NCBI RefSeq assembly: GCF_013391085.1
Contig: NZ_CP058334.1
Span: forward strand, 2,232,001-2,296,000
Direction of reading: 5' to 3'
DNA: 64,000 nucleotides
From: Natronomonas halophila
GTDB lineage: Archaea; Halobacteriota; Halobacteria; Halobacteriales; Haloarculaceae
The translations under genes and the position numbers were made by a program. This document shows positions 12,037-48,045 of this stretch, one piece after another. The first letter of the stretch is position 1. Every line of letters begins with the position of its first letter. The notes beneath the pieces are model-generated. The model was not told where the DNA came from and made no database searches. It saw only the letters and a program-made list of their open reading frames with translations.

Positions 12037-12633
12037 ATGATACTCTCCGATGCGGACATCCGCCGTCGCCTGACGGACGGCGACCTCGTCGTCGAACCTC
12101 TCGACGACCCCGAGTTGCAGATTCAGCCCGCCAGCATCGACCTCCGACTCGGCCGGGAGTTCCTGGAGTTCCAGCGCACCAACATCCCCTGTATCCACCC
12201 CAACAGCGAACAGGAGGTCGACGAGTACGTCGACGAGACCTACGTCGAGGAAGGCGAGGACTTCATCCTCCATCCCGGCGATTTCGTCCTCGGGACGACC
12301 AAGGAACGCGTCGAAATCCCGGCGGACCTCATCGCCCACGTCGAGGGCCGGTCGTCGCTCGGCCGGCTCGCGGTCGTCGTCCACGCGACGGCGGGCCTCT
12401 GTGACCCCGGCTACGAGGGTCAGATCACGCTCGAGTTGTCGAACCTCGGGACCGCGCCGGTCGCGCTGACGCCCGACATGCGCATCTCGCAGTTGACCTT
12501 CACCGAACTGAAAAACCCCGCCGAACGGCCCTACGGCGCCGAGCGCGGGTCGAAATATCAGGGACAGGCCGGGCCGCAGGCCTCCCGCATCCAGTCGGAT
12601 GAGGAGTTCGGCGGCGAGCAACTGGACCGATGA
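12037..12633 (+). CDS. dcd: dCTP deaminase
   Basis: A 198-residue trimeric nucleotide deaminase of the Dcd/dUTPase fold. Visible motifs are [11 protein letters not shown]-like [14 protein letters not shown], the nucleotide-binding EGRSSLGRL (about residue 109 onward), the core [15 protein letters not shown] with the catalytic Glu, and the C-terminal YQGQ lid. It converts dCTP to dUTP (or dUMP if bifunctional) for dTMP synthesis. A TATA-like CTTTAAG lies about 27 bases before the ATG. The stop overlaps the start of thiR by four bases, so dcd and thiR are probably co-transcribed although functionally unrelated. Mono- versus bifunctionality cannot be decided here. Confidence 0.93.
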
Positions 12634-13526
12634 AGTTCATCGAAGAGGTCGTCGTCGAGGAGTTCCTCCCGACGTTTCGGGCGATGCTCGCAGGGGAGTT
12701 GCGCGACCGGGACCGCACCCAAAGCGAGGTCGCCGAACTGCTCGGAATCAGCCAGAGCGCCGTCTCGAAGTACGCCCACGGCGAGGTCGAGACCAACGAC
12801 GTCCTCGCCGAGGACGACCGGGTCGTCGAGTTGGTCGACCGACTGGCCGACGGCCTCACCTCCGGCGACATGACACGCGTGCAGGCGCTCGTCGAGACCG
12901 AGGTACTCATCCGGAAACTGGAGCGCGGCGACGTGCTCGCTCGCCTCCACGAGGAGGCCTTCCCGCCGCTTGCCGACTACGAGGGCGCGCTTGATATCCA
13001 CGACCCCGAAAGCGAACTGCGGACGGCCGAACGCGTCCGGTCGTCGGTCCGCCGCGGCGTCCGGACCCTCGAAACCATCAGCGGCTTCGCGGCGCTCATC
13101 CCGGCGGTCGGTTCGAATCTCGTCGAGGCGTTGCCGGACGCGAAGGGCATCGACGACGTCGCCGCCGTTCCCGGCCGAATCCTCGATATCAAAGGGCGGG
13201 CGACGGTTCCCAGCGACCCCGAGTTCGGTGTCTCCGAACACGTCGCCTCGGTTCTGCTGGCGGCCCGGAGCGGCGGCCACGACGCCCGCGCGGCACTGAA
13301 CGTCCGCTACGACGAGGACATCATCGGGAAACTCGAGGCGGCGGGCTACGAGACCGTCGAGTTCGACGCCGAGGCGGACGTCGGGACGGCGATTGCCGAC
13401 GCGCTGGCCGACGAGTCGAACCCCGACGTCCTCTATCAGACCGGCGGGTTCGGTATCGAACCCGTCTGCTACATCCTCGGTGCCGACGCCTCGGCGGTCG
13501 TCGGGACCGTCCGCGATATCGTCTGA
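12630..13526 (+). CDS. thiR: ThiR-type regulator: HTH fused to ThiN domain
   Basis: A 298-residue protein. Residues ~25-60 form an XRE/Cro-like helix-turn-helix ([21 protein letters not shown]). The C-terminal ~170 residues form a ThiN (thiamine-phosphate synthase-like) domain with [28 protein letters not shown] and the end [16 protein letters not shown]. ThiR of Haloferax volcanii has this architecture and represses thiamine biosynthesis and uptake genes, sensing thiamine phosphates through the ThiN domain; I infer the same role here. A target, thi4, lies 4 kb downstream. It overlaps dcd by four bases and the methyltransferase by one (TGATG). Confidence 0.88.
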
Positions 13527-14644: not shown

Positions 14645-15916
14645 TTAGACGCTGCCATCCGGTCGCGGGAGCGCGCGCTGCTCCCGCGAGGGGACGAGGA
14701 AGTTCCCGCGGTGTTTGACGAAGATGTAGCGGAGGATGCCGTTGTTGACCCGTTGGCGGATGGCCGGCGTTTCGGCGACGACGTCGGCGGCGTTCATCGC
14801 CTCGCGGACCTCCTCGAAGGTGGAGATGCCCTGCTGGAGGCTCGGGAAATGGAGGCTGGCGACGCCCTCGTCGGTGGATTCGACGTGGCGGCGGACCGTC
14901 CGGATGTTGCCCTCGTCGTCGCGGTTGGCCGCGGCCATCTTCTGAGCGTGGCCGATGGCGCCGTGGTCGTTGGCTTCCCCGACGAGGCTCTCGATGTCCT
15001 CGGGAACGACGCCGCTGTTGTCGCCGAGGTTGTCGCCGACGCCCTCGACGTCGCCGACCAGACGGGTGCTGAACAGTTTCTTGACCATGCTGTCGTGGTC
15101 GTTGTCGCCGTACCAGCGGCCGAGGCGCTGCTGGAGGTGGCTGACGTGCTTCGTCGTCCCGCCGGCGAAGGGGCCGTCCTCGATGGTGACGTACTCCTCG
15201 GTGGCCTGGTTGCCCCGGAAGCCGGCGTCGAAGCCCATGAACAGTTTGGCGGCCTCCGGCACGTCGGCGTCCTCGGGAATGCCGTCGACTTCGTCGGCGC
15301 GTTCGGCGGGCATCCCTTTGCCGATAAAGCCCGTTCGCCGCTCGGCGACCGTTCCGGGGAAGGCAACCGCGTCGATGCCGTTGGCCGTCTCGCCGTCGCC
15401 GAAGAGGGCTTCTTCGGCCTCCAGCACGACGTCCGCGCGGTCGGAGGCCACCTGCAGGAGAGCGTCCTGCGTGTCGAAATCGGGGCTTTCGAAATCCGAG
15501 AGCGCGCGCGGTTCGGGGAGGTCGACGCCCTCGGGGGCGGCCCCGTAGCGCTGGAAGTAGGCCGGCGAGTAGCCGATGGAGTAGAGCAGGCCGGCCGACG
15601 AGCGCTCGTAGGCCCGGTCGAGGACCGAAAGCGCCTCGTCGACGGCCGCTCGCGTCTCGTCGCTCGGTTCGCCCGACTCGTCGAGGTCGATATAGAGGAA
15701 GGCGTGGTGCTGCGGCAGGACTGGGTTGCCGTGCTCGTCGGTGGCCATCGCATCCCGCCACGCGTGCTGGCGGGCGGGGAGGGTCGAGGGGTCGTCGACG
15801 CCCTCGGGGACCGGCTCGTCGGTTATATCGAGGCAGGCCGAAAGTCCCGCGGTGCCGCCGACTGCAACGGCGGCCTTCAGGAAGCGTCGGCGGGTCGGCG
15901 TGTACCGACGTGTCAT
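14645..15916 (-). CDS. Tat-exported Dyp-peroxidase-like lipoprotein (DUF7405-type)
   Basis: A 423-residue secreted protein. The N-terminus has a Tat motif (RRRFLK) and a possible lipobox ending in LSAC. The body resembles dye-decolorizing (Dyp) peroxidases. A Gly-rich turn GGTTKHVSHLQQRLGRW matches the GGSY...W element. The segment GHAQKMAAANRD with His323 matches the haem-proximal SHIRxANPR motif, followed by RTVRRHV, and then GVASLHFPSLQQGISTFEEV matches the Dyp C-terminal core. The distal GxxDG-type motif appears only as GFRGNQ, without the catalytic Asp. It may therefore bind haem extracytoplasmically but have altered chemistry. The haem-binding claim is inference from motif order. Confidence 0.65.
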   Translation of the reverse strand: MTRRYTPTRRRFLKAAVAVGGTAGLSACLDITDEPVPEGVDDPSTLPARQHAWRDAMATDEHGNPVLPQHHAFLYIDLDESGEPSDETRAAVDEALSVLDRAYERSSAGLLYSIGYSPAYFQRYGAAPEGVDLPEPRALSDFESPDFDTQDALLQVASDRADVVLEAEEALFGDGETANGIDAVAFPGTVAERRTGFIGKGMPAERADEVDGIPEDADVPEAAKLFMGFDAGFRGNQATEEYVTIEDGPFAGGTTKHVSHLQQRLGRWYGDNDHDSMVKKLFSTRLVGDVEGVGDNLGDNSGVVPEDIESLVGEANDHGAIGHAQKMAAANRDDEGNIRTVRRHVESTDEGVASLHFPSLQQGISTFEEVREAMNAADVVAETPAIRQRVNNGILRYIFVKHRGNFLVPSREQRALPRPDGSV

Positions 15917-15966: not shown

Positions 15967-16719
15967 TTACCCGTACCGGGCGGCGTGGGCTTCACAGAAC
16001 GGCGAACCCTGCAATTGCGCCGCGAGCAGTTCCGGCTGTCGGTGGGCGTTATACAGCCGGCAATCGGAGTCCTCGCAGAACGCCTCGCCGGTTTCGAGGT
16101 AGTGGTAGGCAGCCAGCACGGCGCCTTTCAGGGCGTCGGTCGTTCGGGGGTCGTCGGCGACGAGGAAGTCCCCCTCGACTTCGTTTTCGAGGACCTCCCG
16201 CGGCGGCGCGTCGCCGGACAGCAGGGCGTGCTGTTGCTTGGCTTTATAATACGATTCGGGCTTGGCCGGGGCTTCGTAGAGGCCGGGGACCGAAACGACA
16301 GCGGGTTGACCCAGAACGTTCACGCGCTTGTGCCAGCGGCCGTCGTGGTCGCCCCATGTGCCGACGACGCGGTCCAGCAGGACGACGTGGAGGTGGTCAA
16401 GCGGGCAGTCTAGCCGTTTGCGGAGAGCATCCTGAACCGCCAAGCCGTCGTAAATGACGCCGCCGGCACGCTCGGGTGATTCGAGGGCCCGTTCCTCGTA
16501 GCGGAGGATGCCGGTCATCGTGTTGCCGGTCTCACGCTCGTAAGGGGAGACGACGCGGGCCTCGGCGAATTCTCGTGCTAACTCTTCGTCACCGATATCG
16601 TCCAGCATCCGGTCCTCGATAGCCACTTCGGCGTCGACACGCTGTGCTAACCACTCGCCGAGTTCGTCGGCGTCGGCTTCCGTCGTCGGTGCGCGATAGA
16701 GCGTGACTCGGTCGGGCAT
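15967..16719 (-). CDS. archaemetzincin-like protein with lost HExxH (DUF6775-like)
   Basis: A 250-residue protein. The C-terminal segment follows the archaemetzincin zinc pattern in order: Gly211, three residues, Cys215, four residues, Cys220, then CxxH with Cys242 and His245 (Cys-x2-Cys in the family). At the place of the catalytic HExxH there is AYHYL (residues 204-208), so both His ligands and the Glu are gone. The middle DHLHVVLLDRVVGTWGDHDGRWH resembles the metzincin core strands. It may keep a structural zinc site and act as a binding protein or pseudo-protease. The spacing between the second and third Cys is slightly longer than usual. The start is uncertain: the only strong TATA-like element is too close. 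Confidence 0.6.
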   Translation of the reverse strand: MPDRVTLYRAPTTEADADELGEWLAQRVDAEVAIEDRMLDDIGDEELAREFAEARVVSPYERETGNTMTGILRYEERALESPERAGGVIYDGLAVQDALRKRLDCPLDHLHVVLLDRVVGTWGDHDGRWHKRVNVLGQPAVVSVPGLYEAPAKPESYYKAKQQHALLSGDAPPREVLENEVEGDFLVADDPRTTDALKGAVLAAYHYLETGEAFCEDSDCRLYNAHRQPELLAAQLQGSPFCEAHAARYG

Positions 16720-16754
16720 AGCGGTGTTAGTTTATAAGCGGAGCATCCGCTGAG

Positions 16755-16920
16755 GGGGGCGTTCGAAGAACGCCCCCGAGGCGGTTCGCGGCGACGAGCG
16801 AAGCGAGTCGCCGTAGCGCGCACGGACTGGAGCGCCCGAAGGGCGCGGAAGGAGTACGCGCGCATATTTTCCCCACGTTTTTGCCGCGGAGGTGGGTTCG
16901 GCGCCGTAGCGCGCCGAACC
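16755..16920. repeat. cluster of four GC-rich perfect hairpins
   Basis: Four perfect inverted repeats stand in series in this gene-free stretch (16720-16946). Their arms are 16755-16764/16768-16777 (10 bp), 16790-16795/16807-16812, 16832-16837/16841-16846 and 16895-16904/16911-16920 (10 bp). The loop GAGCGAAGCGA is typical of haloarchaeal intergenic repeats. No coding potential is seen. Similar clusters occur at 35572-35658 and inside metG. They may be non-coding mobile repeats or transcription-end structures. Confidence 0.7.
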
Positions 16921-16932
16921 GCCGGAGCGTGC

Positions 16933-16937
16933 AAAAA
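16933..16937 (-). terminator. oligo-T stretch after thi4
   Basis: Five consecutive T on the minus strand lie ten bases after the thi4 stop, followed by the 10-bp hairpin at 16895-16920. Archaeal transcription ends at oligo-T runs, so this is the likely thi4 terminator. Confidence 0.4.
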
Positions 16938-16946
16938 GTGGGCGTT

Positions 16947-17910
<964 letters not shown>

Positions 17911-43266: not shown

Positions 43267-46200
43267 ATGCACATCAAAGAGCTCGTCCTCGACAACTTCA
43301 AGAGCTTCGGCCGTAAGACGCGAATCCCTTTATACGAGGATTTCACCACCATCAGCGGCCCGAACGGCTCCGGCAAGTCCAACATCATCGACTCGATTCT
43401 CTTCGCCCTCGGACTGGCCCGTACCTCGGGCATCCGGGCCGACAAACTCACGGACCTTATCTACAACCCGGGCCACGATGACGCCGACGAGGAGTTCGGC
43501 GGCGAACGCGAGGCCAGCGTCGAGGTCATCCTCGACAACGACGACGGCACGCTCTCCCGGGAGCAAATCGTCTCCGCGGCCGGTTCAGACAAGGTCGGCG
43601 ACGTCGACGAGGTGTCGATTCGCCGCCGCGTCAAGCAGACCGACGAGGACACCTACTACTCCTACTACTACCTCAACGGTCGCTCGGTCAACCTCTCGGA
43701 CATCCAGGACCTGCTCGCGCAGGCCGGCGTGACGCCCGAAGGGTACAACGTCGTGATGCAGGGCGACGTGACCGAAATCATCACCATGACGGCCGGTTCC
43801 CGCCGGCAGATCATCGACGAAATCGCCGGCGTCGCGCAGTTCGACGCAAAGAAGGAGGACGCCTTCGAGGAACTGGAAACCGTCCAGGAACGGGTCGACG
43901 AGGCCGAACTCCGCATCGAGGAAAAGCAGGAGCGCCTCGACCAACTCGAAGACGAGCGGGAGACGGCGCTGGAATATCAGGACCTCCGTGACGAGAAACA
44001 GGAGTACGAGGGCTACCTGAAGGCCGCCGAACTCGAAGACAAGCGCGAGGAACTCGAGGAGACGACGGCGGCTATCGACGAAAAGGAGGAGGGCCTCGAA
44101 GACCTCCAGCGCGAACTCGACGAACGGCAGGGCCGCGTCACGCGCCTGCAGGAGGACCTCGAAGACCTCAACGCCGAAATCGAGCGGAAGGGCGAGGACG
44201 AACAGCTCGCCATCAAGCGCGATATCGAGGAAATCAAAGGCGACATCTCGCGGCTCGAGGACAAAATCGAGGCCGAAGAGGAACGCATCGAGGAGGCCGA
44301 GAACAAGCGCCGCGAGGCCTTCGTCCAGGTCGACCGCAAGCAGGAGAAAATCGATGAACTGGACGGCGACATCCGCAACAAGAAAGTCGAGAAATCGTCG
44401 CTGAAGGCCGACATTCAGGAGAAGGAAGCCGACCTCGAAGAGGTCGAAGCCGAGATTCAGGCCGTCGACACCGAATACGAGGAAGTACGGGACGCCCTGG
44501 AGGAGAACCGCGAGCGGATTCAAAAGCTCAAAGACGAGAAGAACGACCTCCAGCGCGAGCAGGACCGCCTGCTCGACGAATCGCGGCGACGCTCGAAGGA
44601 AGAACGCGAGAAGAAGGCCGAAATCGAGGAGGCCGAAGACGAACTGCCGGAACTGGACGCCCAGTTGTCGGACCTCGAAAACGAACTGGAAAAGGCCGAG
44701 GCCAACCGGGAGACGATTACCGAAGTCGTCGAGGACCTCAAACAGGAGAAACGCGAACTGCAAGAGGACCTCGAAAGCGTCGAGGACGACCTTTCGGCGA
44801 AACAGCAGGAGTACGCCGAGTTAGAGGCCCGCGCGGGCGAAAGCGGCGACAACTCGTACGGCCGCGCGGTGACGACGATTCTGAACGCCGAGAAGGAGGG
44901 CGTCCACGGGACGGTCGGACAACTGGGCAGCGTCGCCCCCGACTACACGACCGCCTGTGAGACGGCTGCCGGCGGCCGACTGGCGAACGTCGTCGTCGAC
45001 GACGACGGCGTCGGTCAGGACTGTATCGAATACCTGAAATCCCGCAACGCCGGCCGGGCGACCTTCCTGCCGATGACGGAGATGAACGGCCGGTCGCTGC
45101 CGTCCGCACCGGACCTGCCCGGCGTGGTCGATTTCGCGTACAACCTCATCGACTTCGACCCGACCTACGCGGATATCTTCTCCTACGTCGTCGGCGACAC
45201 GCTCGTCGTCGAGGACATGGAGACGGCCCGCGACCTGATGGGCGAGTTCCGCATCGTGACGCTCGACGGCGACCTCGTCGAGAAGTCGGGCGCGATGACC
45301 GGTGGCTCGAAATCCGGTTCCCGCTACTCCTTTACCAAGAGCGGGAAGGGTCAACTCGAACGCGTCGCCGAACAGATTACCGACCTCGAAGACGAGAAAC
45401 AGTCGATTCGGTCGGACATCCGCGACGTCGAGGGCCGACTCGACGACGCCCGCGACCGGCAGACCGACGCTGCCGACCAGGTCCGTGATATCGAATCGGA
45501 TATCGAGTCGATAGAAAGCGAACGCGAGGAAATCGAAGCCCGAATCGAACGCCTCCAGGACGAACTCGCCGAAATCGAGGGCGAACGCGAGGAGGTCGCC
45601 GAAGAGATGGAGGAACTGGAGGCGGACCTCGAAGCGAAAAACGAGGAAATAGACGCCGTCCAGGAGGACATCGACGAACTCGAAGCCGAACTGCAGGCCT
45701 CCGAGATTCCCGAACTGACGAGCAAGGCCGAGGAGATTCGCGAGGAAATCGCCGAGTTGGAAGACCGGATGGACGACCTCGACGGCGACCTCAACGAACT
45801 GCAACTCGAGAAGCAGTACGCCGAGGAGGCCATCGAGGACCTCCACGACGATATCGAGTCGGCCCAGAACAAGAAGGCCGACGCCGAAGAGCGCGTGGTC
45901 GAACTCGAAGCACAAATCGACGAGAAGGAGGCCGAACTCGAGGAGAAGGAGGCCGAAGTCGCGGAACTCGAAGAGGAACTCGCGGACCTCAAGGCCGACC
46001 GCGAGGAACTGAAAAACGAACTCGGCGACGCCAAGGGGGCCCGCGACGAGCAGAAAGAGCAGGTCTCCCGCGTCGAATCGAAACTCGAGGACCTCCGAGA
46101 CCAGCGTGACCGCCTCGAATGGGAGGTCGACGAACTCGCCTCGCAGGTCGAAGAGTACGACCCCGAGGAGATTCCGGACCACGACACTGTCAAGCAGGAA

Positions 46201-46845
46201 ATCCAGCGCCTCGAAGCCGAAATGTCGGCCCTAGAGCCGGTCAACATGCTGGCTATCGACGAATACGACGAGGTGCAGGACGACCTCGAAGACCTCGAAG
46301 CAAAGCGGGATACGCTGGTCGACGAGGCCGACGAGATTCGCGACCGCATCGACCAGTACGAAGCCCGCAAGAAGGAGACGTTCATGGACGCCTACGAGGG
46401 CATCAACGAGCAGTTCGAGGACATCTTCTCGCGACTCTCGGGCGGGTCGGGCGAACTCGTCCTCGAGGACCCCGAGGACCCCTTCGAGGGCGGCCTGACG
46501 ATGAAGGCCCAACCGCGGGACAAGCCGGTTCAGCGCCTCGACGCCATGTCCGGCGGCGAGAAATCGCTGACGGCGCTGGCGTTCATCTTCGCCATCCAGC
46601 GGTACAACCCCGCACCCTTCTACGCGCTGGACGAGGTGGACGCCTTCCTCGATGCCGCCAACGCCGAGATGGTCGGCGAGATGGTCGAGGAACTGGCCGG
46701 CGACGCACAGTTCGTCGTCGTCTCCCACCGCTCGGCACTCTTGGAGCGCTCCGAGCGCGCCATCGGCGTGATGATGCAGGACGACAACGTCTCCGCGGTG
46801 ACGGGTATCGACCTGTCGTCGGAGGGGGTGCCGGCGGATGATTGA
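43267..46845 (+). CDS. smc: chromosome segregation protein SMC
   Basis: A 1192-residue condensin core. The N-terminal ATPase half has Walker A GPNGSGKS (residues 31-38). Two very long antiparallel coiled coils flank a hinge (roughly residues 510-690; GTVGQLGSVAPDYTTACETAAG marks its start). The C-terminal half has the ABC signature MSGGEKSLTALAF and Walker B FYALDEVDAFLD. It loops and compacts chromosomal DNA. The last eight bases overlap scpA, so the kleisin partner is made in step. All ATPase motifs are intact and length is normal. Confidence 0.97.
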   Translation: MHIKELVLDNFKSFGRKTRIPLYEDFTTISGPNGSGKSNIIDSILFALGLARTSGIRADKLTDLIYNPGHDDADEEFGGEREASVEVILDNDDGTLSREQIVSAAGSDKVGDVDEVSIRRRVKQTDEDTYYSYYYLNGRSVNLSDIQDLLAQAGVTPEGYNVVMQGDVTEIITMTAGSRRQIIDEIAGVAQFDAKKEDAFEELETVQERVDEAELRIEEKQERLDQLEDERETALEYQDLRDEKQEYEGYLKAAELEDKREELEETTAAIDEKEEGLEDLQRELDERQGRVTRLQEDLEDLNAEIERKGEDEQLAIKRDIEEIKGDISRLEDKIEAEEERIEEAENKRREAFVQVDRKQEKIDELDGDIRNKKVEKSSLKADIQEKEADLEEVEAEIQAVDTEYEEVRDALEENRERIQKLKDEKNDLQREQDRLLDESRRRSKEEREKKAEIEEAEDELPELDAQLSDLENELEKAEANRETITEVVEDLKQEKRELQEDLESVEDDLSAKQQEYAELEARAGESGDNSYGRAVTTILNAEKEGVHGTVGQLGSVAPDYTTACETAAGGRLANVVVDDDGVGQDCIEYLKSRNAGRATFLPMTEMNGRSLPSAPDLPGVVDFAYNLIDFDPTYADIFSYVVGDTLVVEDMETARDLMGEFRIVTLDGDLVEKSGAMTGGSKSGSRYSFTKSGKGQLERVAEQITDLEDEKQSIRSDIRDVEGRLDDARDRQTDAADQVRDIESDIESIESEREEIEARIERLQDELAEIEGEREEVAEEMEELEADLEAKNEEIDAVQEDIDELEAELQASEIPELTSKAEEIREEIAELEDRMDDLDGDLNELQLEKQYAEEAIEDLHDDIESAQNKKADAEERVVELEAQIDEKEAELEEKEAEVAELEEELADLKADREELKNELGDAKGARDEQKEQVSRVESKLEDLRDQRDRLEWEVDELASQVEEYDPEEIPDHDTVKQEIQRLEAEMSALEPVNMLAIDEYDEVQDDLEDLEAKRDTLVDEADEIRDRIDQYEARKKETFMDAYEGINEQFEDIFSRLSGGSGELVLEDPEDPFEGGLTMKAQPRDKPVQRLDAMSGGEKSLTALAFIFAIQRYNPAPFYALDEVDAFLDAANAEMVGEMVEELAGDAQFVVVSHRSALLERSERAIGVMMQDDNVSAVTGIDLSSEGVPADD

Positions 46846-47866
46846 CGAAAACGAGCCGGAAGACGACGAGAAACGCACCGACGGCGGTGCGGCCGACGAC
46901 ATCCCGCTGAACATCGCGGGCCACGAGAAGGAGAAGAAGCGCCGAGAGCAGGAAAACGGCGCGAGTACGAACGGTACGGAGCCGGACGTCAACGGAAACG
47001 GAACGGGTGACGTGGACGGAGATGAAGACGACGCAGTCCTCTCGGAGTTCGACGTTTCCGAATCGGACGCTGACGACGACGAGGTCGAACCCGTCGAGTT
47101 GCTCGTCCAGTTGGCCAAGGACGGCGAAATCGACCCGTGGGACATCGACGTCGTGACGGTCACCGACAAGTTCCTCGACCGCCTCGATGAGGCGGACCTC
47201 CGAACCGGCGGCCGGGCGCTGTTCTACGCGTCGGTACTGCTACGGATGAAAAGCGACGCGATGTGGGTCGACGAAGACGAGCAGGAGGAGGAGTGGGCCG
47301 AGGAGCCCTGGGAGGAGGGCCCGCCGCCCGAGGAGGGCGGGCCGGTCGTCGACCCCTTCGACGAACTGGAGCGGGAAATCGACCGGCGTATCGACCGGAA
47401 ACGGGCCCGTGGAATGCCGGAGACGCTGGACGAGCTGGTTCGGGACCTCCGGGAGCACGAACGCGATACGTGGTGGAAGGAATCGAGGACCTACGACACC
47501 TCGGAGTCGCCGTCCGGGTTCTCTCGCGGCGCGCAGACGCTGGATTACCACTCGGGCGACGACTTCCGGATGGACGACGAACCGACCGCCGACGACGTGA
47601 CGGGGACGGCCCACGACGAGCACATGGAGGATATCATCAACGACGTCTACGTCGAACTCCAGAGCCACTACGAGCAGGGCCGCGACGAGGTGCTCTTCGC
47701 CGAGGTGCGTGAGGCCGGCGGGTCGACGGTCAACACCTTCCTCGGATTGCTCTTCTTGGCTCACCGCGGACAGGTCAAACTCCAGCAGGACGACCTCTTC
47801 GGCGACCTCTGGGTGCAGGACCCCTCGGCGACGCCCGTCGAGGAACCCGCAGCGGCCGACGACTGA
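46838..47866 (+). CDS. scpA: segregation and condensation protein A (kleisin)
   Basis: A 342-residue kleisin. The first ~82 residues are an acidic, low-complexity extension not found in bacterial ScpA. The conserved N-terminal kleisin domain then begins at PVELLVQLAKDGEIDPWDIDVVTVTDKFLD. The C-terminal winged helix that binds the SMC head includes FAEVREAGGSTVNTFLGLLFLAHRGQVKLQQDDLFGDLWV. It bridges the SMC heads. No scpB gene follows, as is usual in haloarchaea. It overlaps smc by eight bases. Confidence 0.93.
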   Translation: MIDENEPEDDEKRTDGGAADDIPLNIAGHEKEKKRREQENGASTNGTEPDVNGNGTGDVDGDEDDAVLSEFDVSESDADDDEVEPVELLVQLAKDGEIDPWDIDVVTVTDKFLDRLDEADLRTGGRALFYASVLLRMKSDAMWVDEDEQEEEWAEEPWEEGPPPEEGGPVVDPFDELEREIDRRIDRKRARGMPETLDELVRDLREHERDTWWKESRTYDTSESPSGFSRGAQTLDYHSGDDFRMDDEPTADDVTGTAHDEHMEDIINDVYVELQSHYEQGRDEVLFAEVREAGGSTVNTFLGLLFLAHRGQVKLQQDDLFGDLWVQDPSATPVEEPAAADD

Positions 47867-47898
47867 CTTCTTGAAACTCCGGAACCATTTGCCGATAC

Positions 47899-47908
47899 AT
47901 TTATATTT
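47899..47908 (+). promoter_or_regulatory. TATA box upstream of the 36-residue ORF
   Basis: ATTTATATTT lies about 30 bases before the ATG at 47935, in an AT-rich spacer after scpA, and supports separate expression of the short ORF. Confidence 0.55.
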
Positions 47909-47934
47909 GAAACTGTGGTAGGGTATAGCACATC

Positions 47935-48045
47935 ATGACGCCGTCACGATTCAGAGAGCGGCTCGCCGAGACCCGCGACCGAGTAGACCCCGACGACGTG
48001 GTGACGGCGCTGACGTACGTCCGCGAGGACGCCCGTCAGCGATAA
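47935..48045 (+). CDS. 36-residue basic/acidic small protein
   Basis: A short ORF with its own strong TATA element encodes a 36-residue soluble protein. It begins MTPSRFRERLAETRDRV and ends YVREDARQR. It is charged, helical and without Cys. It sits between scpA and the convergent mtnP gene and overlaps the mtnP 3' end by ten bases. I recognise no family. The promoter placement and complete codon structure are the evidence for a real gene. Confidence 0.5.
   Translation: MTPSRFRERLAETRDRVDPDDVVTALTYVREDARQR

Follow-up and report, generated by a model that had tools for sequence, protein, structure and literature searches.

A predicted archaemetzincin-fold protein without the peptidase motif, linked to the Cys-type thiazole synthase Thi4 of Natronomonas halophila and other archaea

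What does a protein filed under a probable metallopeptidase family do beside a gene of vitamin B1 synthesis when the motif that would make it a peptidase is gone? The question is raised by a 250-residue protein encoded in a 64,000-nucleotide stretch of the Natronomonas halophila genome (assembly GCF_013391085.1, contig NZ_CP058334.1, positions 2,232,001 to 2,296,000; hereafter the window), whose open reading frame (ORF) starts with ATG and lies downstream of thi4, the gene for a Cys-type ADP-thiazole synthase (Table 1). The answer towards which we lean is that this protein, a member of the DUF7001/DUF6775 family, has the fold of an archaemetzincin without cutting proteins, and assists Cys-type Thi4 in making the thiazole half of vitamin B1. 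An earlier note on this DNA had described the protein as an archaemetzincin-like one that had lost its HExxH and had not seen the link to thi4; the tie of the family to thi4, and to Cys-type Thi4 in particular, is what is new here.

The window protein matches two Pfam models over nearly its full length, PF22529 (DUF7001) with 370.6 bits and PF20565 (DUF6775, labelled 'Probable metallopeptidase family') with 291.8 bits against a cut-off of 27, and because two distant members that we scanned each match both models, DUF7001 and DUF6775 seem to be one family. These were its only Pfam matches listed at E ≤ 10, the archaemetzincin model PF07998 being absent from them; no NCBIfam model matched at E ≤ 1, and a search of solved structures in the PDB gave no sequence match at E ≤ 10, whether the query was the protein by itself or a profile of 26 rows. 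Relatives came from a contig scan, of which the best 80 of 277 were kept as loci (record titles haloarchaeal), and from a carrier search across the genomes of the window's phylum, which placed the family beyond haloarchaea in seven genomes belonging to five other families; the member at one of these loci (L156, genome G184) is divergent, at 102 bits. Two scans of viral contigs gave no relative, and a viral origin of the gene was set aside. The residue counts below refer to 106 distinct members, with identical sequences counted once: the window protein, those of 79 of the 80 haloarchaeal loci, and members from other genomes, seven of them non-haloarchaeal. Left out were short pieces (L019, L020, L040, L041), second copies of one gene (L002, L010, L035, L037) and L110 of Natronorubrum bangense, the one locus among the 80 with an in-frame stop (residue 141), which may be a pseudogene or a sequencing error.

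The archaemetzincin pattern G-x3-C-x4-C...C-x2-(C/H), which the earlier note had read in register at the C-terminus, is found there as G211-x3-C215-x4-C220 ... C242-x2-H245, with G211 present in 101/106 members and C215, C220, C242 and H245 in every one, so that the cysteine site is indeed kept, as Cys3His. The place of HExxH has Ala204, Tyr205 and Leu208, as had been claimed, and residues 204–208 lie inside helix 191–210 of the AlphaFold2 model. Across the family, position 204 is Ala in 94/106 members and His in none, position 205 is never Glu, and position 208 is His in only three; HExxH occurs nowhere in the sequence of any of the 106, and HxxxH in just four. The third zinc-ligand place (position 214) is Phe in 105/106, and the Met-turn place (position 222, C-x-M) is Leu in 105 and Phe in the remaining one. 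Judged from the member sequences, the catalytic zinc site and the Met-turn methionine are gone, with mostly hydrophobic residues in their stead, the second site is retained as Cys3His, and the 'probable metallopeptidase' label of Pfam is not supported. By analogy with the Cys4 site of archaemetzincins and of CarG, the Cys3His site probably binds zinc and would merely hold the C-terminal part of the protein together.

AlphaFold2 modelled the window protein, with 54 haloarchaeal sequences, at a mean predicted local distance difference test (pLDDT) score of 81.1 and a predicted template modelling (pTM) score of 0.80, and a second member from Halorussus at 81.6 and 0.82; the two models share one sequence set with its order changed and are not independent. 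The archaemetzincins 3LMC, 3ZVS, 4AXQ and 2X7M fill the first four places among the structural matches of each model, with Z-scores of 14.6, 14.2, 13.8 and 13.6 for the window protein (2.8–3.2 Å over 154–163 residues) and of 14.7, 14.0, 13.8 and 14.3 for the Halorussus member. Below these, the list for the window protein drops clearly to ADAMTS4, a metzincin, at Z 8.3 and other ADAMTS proteases, with mixed folds under Z 7, and that for the Halorussus member continues from Z 9.8 with TACE, snake-venom proteases and ADAMTS proteins, mostly metzincins; the absence of other folds from such lists carries no evidential weight. Foldseek returned a single match at E ≤ 0.001 for the window protein model, again the archaemetzincin 2X7M (E 2.2e-4). 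Profile–profile comparison with 26 real archaemetzincins put the Cys region in the archaemetzincin register, though the scores were weak (E-values of 0.0089, 2.2e-4 and 0.028 at probabilities of 4.6, 45 and 1.8, respectively). The archaemetzincin fold of the models is thus settled by structure comparison rather than by sequence. Of the two outcomes named beforehand as refuting the idea, a fold unrelated to metzincins and an HExxH elsewhere in the protein, neither was found when both were looked at, the latter across all 106 members.

The claim that only a structural zinc site survives undersells the protein. At least 97% identity is seen at 43 positions across the 106 members. Outside the zinc site, 22 of the 43 hold a polar or charged residue (Arg, Lys, Asp, Glu, His, Tyr, Ser, Thr or Gln), among them R55, E75, R77, D91, R117, D126, R128, H130, R132, E149, K153, Y158, E175, D190 and R192. 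The 43 kept positions are reason to reject a decaying remnant, and the polar set suggests a working site or an interface. A sulfur-relay cysteine was also considered and rejected, no near-invariant Cys existing among the members besides the three of the zinc site. Nor does the protein appear to stand in for an archaemetzincin, since the two can coexist: N. halophila itself has a genuine archaemetzincin with HEIGHTLGLEHC (G000:C1:1373717-1374028), and PF07998 is found in this genome as well as in 3/7 of the non-haloarchaeal carriers.

The link to Thi4 is seen in which genomes carry the gene. Among 59 genomes of the window's order, the family gene was found in 26, Thi4 in 47 and ThiC in 29; Thi4 accompanies the gene in every one of the 26 carriers, and the gene is absent from all 12 genomes that lack Thi4 (Fisher P 5.5e-4), a pattern that is weaker but still seen in the 44 good-quality genomes (Thi4 in 20/20 carriers, the gene in 0/6 Thi4-less genomes, P 0.025). 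Across 246 genomes of the phylum, DUF6775 is present in 20 and Thi4 in 210, all 20 carriers falling among those 210. The active-site residue of Thi4 was read in 112 genomes, from proteins that were top-scoring or picked to span families, not drawn at random, with a second Thi4 copy left unread in a few. It was Cys in 53 genomes and His in another 53, while five had Ala and one had both Ala and His. The family gene is present in 28 of the 53 Cys-type genomes and in none of the 53 His-only or six other genomes (P 5e-11), so that every carrier whose Thi4 was read (28/28) has the Cys type. The Thi4 proteins of one non-haloarchaeal family (f22) differ at the active-site position, some having Ala there and others keeping Cys (G044, G106, G134, G177, G227 and G270; loci L221, L222, L224, L227, L229 and L257). 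A ThiC match is missing in 8/26 carriers of the order (5/20 of good quality), the N. halophila genome among them; Thi4 and a gene for a helix-turn-helix (HTH) protein with a ThiN domain are present there, and the pyrimidine half of thiamine may therefore be taken up.

The second strand of evidence is gene order. In the window, the thi4 and DUF7001/DUF6775 ORFs are separated by 227 bp, and the active-site Cys of Thi4 lies within ...PREITCVDP.... Of the 81 haloarchaeal loci (80 plus the window), 59 have thi4 upstream and in the same orientation in the available DNA, 17 of them at a distance of ≤30 bp; at two further loci the longest ORF overlaps thi4 (L140) or the gene is not intact (L110). Outside haloarchaea the adjacency is tighter, the gene following thi4 directly in six of the seven genomes, with a short overlap in L152, L153, L154, L156 and L158 and a 21-bp gap in L157; in the seventh carrier (G068) the gene and thi4 are on separate contigs. 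No TPP (thiamine pyrophosphate) riboswitch was found at the gathering threshold in the six loci of these operons. Where haloarchaea lack the family, no conspicuous replacement gene stands near thi4, as judged mostly by eye from clusters present in at least 5 of 19 thi4 loci, of which 16 come from genomes that lack the family gene.

Table 1 Positions of the features discussed, in window coordinates.
Feature	Position	Strand	Basis
DUF7001/DUF6775 gene, 250-aa predicted archaemetzincin-fold protein without HExxH	15967..16719	minus	ORF, Pfam, AlphaFold2, structural matches
Codons of residues 204-208 (A-Y-H-Y-L), HExxH place of archaemetzincins	16096..16110	minus	fixed spacing to C215/C220
Codons C215-C220 (C-x4-C), putative zinc site, first half	16060..16077	minus	106/106 members
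Codons C242-H245 (C-x2-H), putative zinc site, second half	15985..15996	minus	106/106 members
thi4 for Cys-type ADP-thiazole synthase, lying upstream	16947..17879	minus	TIGR00292 213 bits; PF01946 200.2 bits
HTH and ThiN-domain protein, likely thiamine regulator	12630..13526	plus	PF10120 ThiN 182.8 bits; PF01381 HTH_3 26.3 bits

The 227-bp gap (window 16720-16946) seems, by eye, to have frequent short palindromic stretches, and just downstream of the gene (window 14645-15916) is a DUF7405 protein with a twin-arginine signal, common to 3/80 haloarchaeal loci. The ThiN-HTH protein of the window is probably a thiamine regulator. Elsewhere, the stretch at window 44001-48000 has a strong AT skew (0.33) and a G+C content of 0.63, slightly under most of the window, and one non-haloarchaeal locus shows an IscU/NifU-like ORF seemingly split by an intein-like insert, by eye (L153:13715-15340), and a HEARO RNA (L153:19443-19681).

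Several observations weigh against a dedicated role with Cys-type Thi4. The gap to thi4 exceeds 600 bp in 36 of the 59 haloarchaeal loci that have it upstream, thi4 is not in the available DNA at 19/81 loci (two of which, L075 and L100, have less than 1.2 kb upstream), and at one locus it is on the opposite strand. Six of the 12 Thi4-less genomes of the order are less than 90% complete, which inflates the strength of the P of 5.5e-4, the shared ancestry of haloarchaea makes all P values too small (although the carriers outside them are spread over five families), and the choice of the Thi4 proteins read bears on the counts by Thi4 type. ThiC is commoner in carriers (18/26 against 11/33 non-carriers, P 0.009), though less clearly so in good genomes (15/20 against 11/24, P 0.07) and among Thi4-bearing genomes (P 0.37). 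The family might accordingly be tied to the making of thiamine in general. The gene is missing from 25 Cys-type genomes and from all 14 control genomes; the controls include Haloferax volcanii, a species whose Cys-type Thi4 (Cys165) is described as essential for thiamine synthesis (PMC4215014), and the protein is therefore not obligatory for Cys-type Thi4. Cys-type Thi4 is also listed by PMC4215014 for members of the Thaumarchaeota, Aeropyrum, Pyrococcus and Methanobacterium. In the model of the window protein, residues 141–190 are placed with a block pLDDT of just 59–69.

Among the genomes read, the gene occurs with no type of Thi4 but the Cys one, with which it at times shares an operon; most likely, then, it meets a requirement of the Cys-type enzyme from which the His-type enzyme is free. 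The conserved Arg, Lys, Asp, Glu and His residues on strands 109–132, in the loop 143–158 and at R192, where the old active-site helix starts, may form a new binding or reaction site, and that surface would bind Thi4 or its adenylated product (ADT). The protein might thereby aid a step needed by the Cys-type enzyme alone: dealing with used-up Thi4, releasing its product or maintaining its shape, for instance. Yeast Thi4 holds its product tightly. As PMC8454699 describes them, plant and fungal Cys-type THI4 proteins donate the sulfur of their own Cys and are consumed, leaving dehydroalanine, and in plants the spent enzyme must be replaced after one turnover. By analogy, the essential Cys of the haloarchaeal enzyme (PMC4215014) suggests that it too is single-use. 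One particular form of this proposal, which we regard as improbable, has the dead protease turned helper, its old peptide cleft holding the active-site loop of spent Thi4 with its dehydroalanine while ADT is released or the Cys rebuilt; were it true, some archaea would escape the single-turnover cost borne by plants and yeast.

The main rival to an accessory role is that the protein is the missing archaeal ADT hydrolase, splitting ADP-thiazole into thiazole phosphate (or carboxylate) and AMP (adenosine monophosphate) through a polar site on the metzincin frame. The 22 near-invariant polar positions outside the zinc site are what an enzyme acting on an ADP compound would be expected to have, and the hydrolase was termed yet to be identified in 2014 (PMC4215014), with a presumed NUDIX hydrolase still spoken of in 2025 (PMC12029414). 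A NUDIX protein is, however, already encoded just upstream of thi4 in two of the non-haloarchaeal operons (L157 and L158), and the sulfide-using THI4 of methanogens gives the same product according to PMC8454699, yet the gene is in none of the 53 His-only genomes. This last argument is qualified by the description of some archaeal His-type THI4s as ribose-1,5-bisphosphate isomerases (PMC4215014). H. volcanii, moreover, manages without the gene. With the NUDIX genes and the want of His-type carriers counting against it, the hydrolase reading appears unlikely to us, if still the one to be taken most seriously among the rivals.

Rather less likely again is a regulator or scaffold in the manner of CarG, in which the dead archaemetzincin would bind another protein, perhaps the ThiN-HTH regulator, and tune thi4 expression. 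CarG is itself an inactive archaemetzincin with a part in transcription regulation (PMC3427221), a ThiN-HTH gene is close by in the window, and ThiN-HTH relatives (one of which was scanned and confirmed as ThiN) are found in 9/19 thi4 loci. Seven of those nine loci, however, are from genomes without the family gene, and ThiN-HTH hence keeps its place near thi4 regardless of it. No ThiN-HTH gene was seen by eye among some five neighbours on each side in the non-haloarchaeal operons, and although HTH genes are nearby in L152 and L153, the two that were scanned there have no ThiN domain.

That the neighbourhood is merely inherited gene order, with the role of the protein unrelated to Thi4, we consider very improbable. 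The large gaps in many haloarchaea, the separate contigs in G068 and the 25 Cys-type genomes without the gene would all fit it; set against them are the tight adjacency in four separate non-haloarchaeal families and the absence of any Thi4-less carrier from both genome sets, that of the order (59) and that of the phylum (246), and of any carrier where the Thi4 read was of the His type only. Least credible of all is that the protein still works as a metallopeptidase through some atypical site, clearing away used-up Thi4 for example, for which the Pfam name, the fold and the one-turnover replacement of Cys-type Thi4 described for plants (PMC8454699) might speak, but which the 106 member sequences make unlikely: HExxH is in none and HxxxH in just four, and the positions of the three zinc ligands and of the Met turn are nearly always taken by non-ligand residues.

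With an accessory of Cys-type Thi4 as the preferred reading, a hitherto uncharacterised archaeal family gains a fold, an argument against its peptidase label and a tie to one enzyme. The DUF7001/DUF6775 protein is a concrete, deletable candidate for the part of the pathway in which archaea would have to cope with a single-turnover thiazole synthase and process what it makes. In the literature searched, no paper naming DUF6775, DUF7001, PF20565 or PF22529 was found, and the titles and abstract openings examined held no link between an archaemetzincin-like protein and thi4, although papers on the archaeal thiamine regulator may mention the gene.

Compared with known systems, the family stands nearest in fold to the archaemetzincins (MEROPS M54, PF07998; AfAmzA, 3ZVS/4AXQ; MkAmzA, 2X7M; MlAmzA, 3LMC), which the models match at Z 13.6–14.7 and with which it shares C-x4-C ... 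C-x2-ligand after the active-site helix. Unlike them, it has neither HExxHxxGxxH nor the Met-turn Met, and a His takes the place of the fourth Cys of their Cys4 site; at 250 residues the window protein is also longer than the solved archaemetzincins (158–191), has no PF07998 match at E ≤ 10 and is linked to thi4. A second comparison is with CarG of Myxococcus xanthus, described in PMC3427221 as a proteolytically inactive archaemetzincin that belongs to a transcription regulator; in that description Gln replaces the catalytic Glu of its HExxH, and its cysteines are held to be structural. Both are pseudo-archaemetzincins with a kept cysteine zinc site, putative in the DUF7001/DUF6775 family. With CarG as precedent, the earlier note's idea of a new function for this fold stands only in part, a non-catalytic archaemetzincin being not wholly new; the check it had proposed, that homologues lack HExxH and keep the Cys residues, holds in all 106 members, though in a family not confined to haloarchaea, given the seven other genomes. 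The family nevertheless goes beyond CarG in how thoroughly an archaemetzincin has been stripped of its catalytic residues: CarG, by its description, has Gln for Glu, whereas the present family has lost the motif entirely along with the Met-turn Met, and CarG is a bacterial component of a transcription factor, whereas the DUF7001/DUF6775 protein is archaeal and tied to thi4, another pathway in another domain of life. Lastly, the TRASH-family proteins that PMC8454699 describes as encoded beside non-Cys THI4 genes resemble the DUF7001/DUF6775 protein in being small, cysteine-rich and metal-binding (putatively so in the latter) and in being encoded next to a THI4 gene; they belong to a different family and accompany the non-Cys enzyme, whereas DUF7001/DUF6775 is found solely with the Cys-type THI4.
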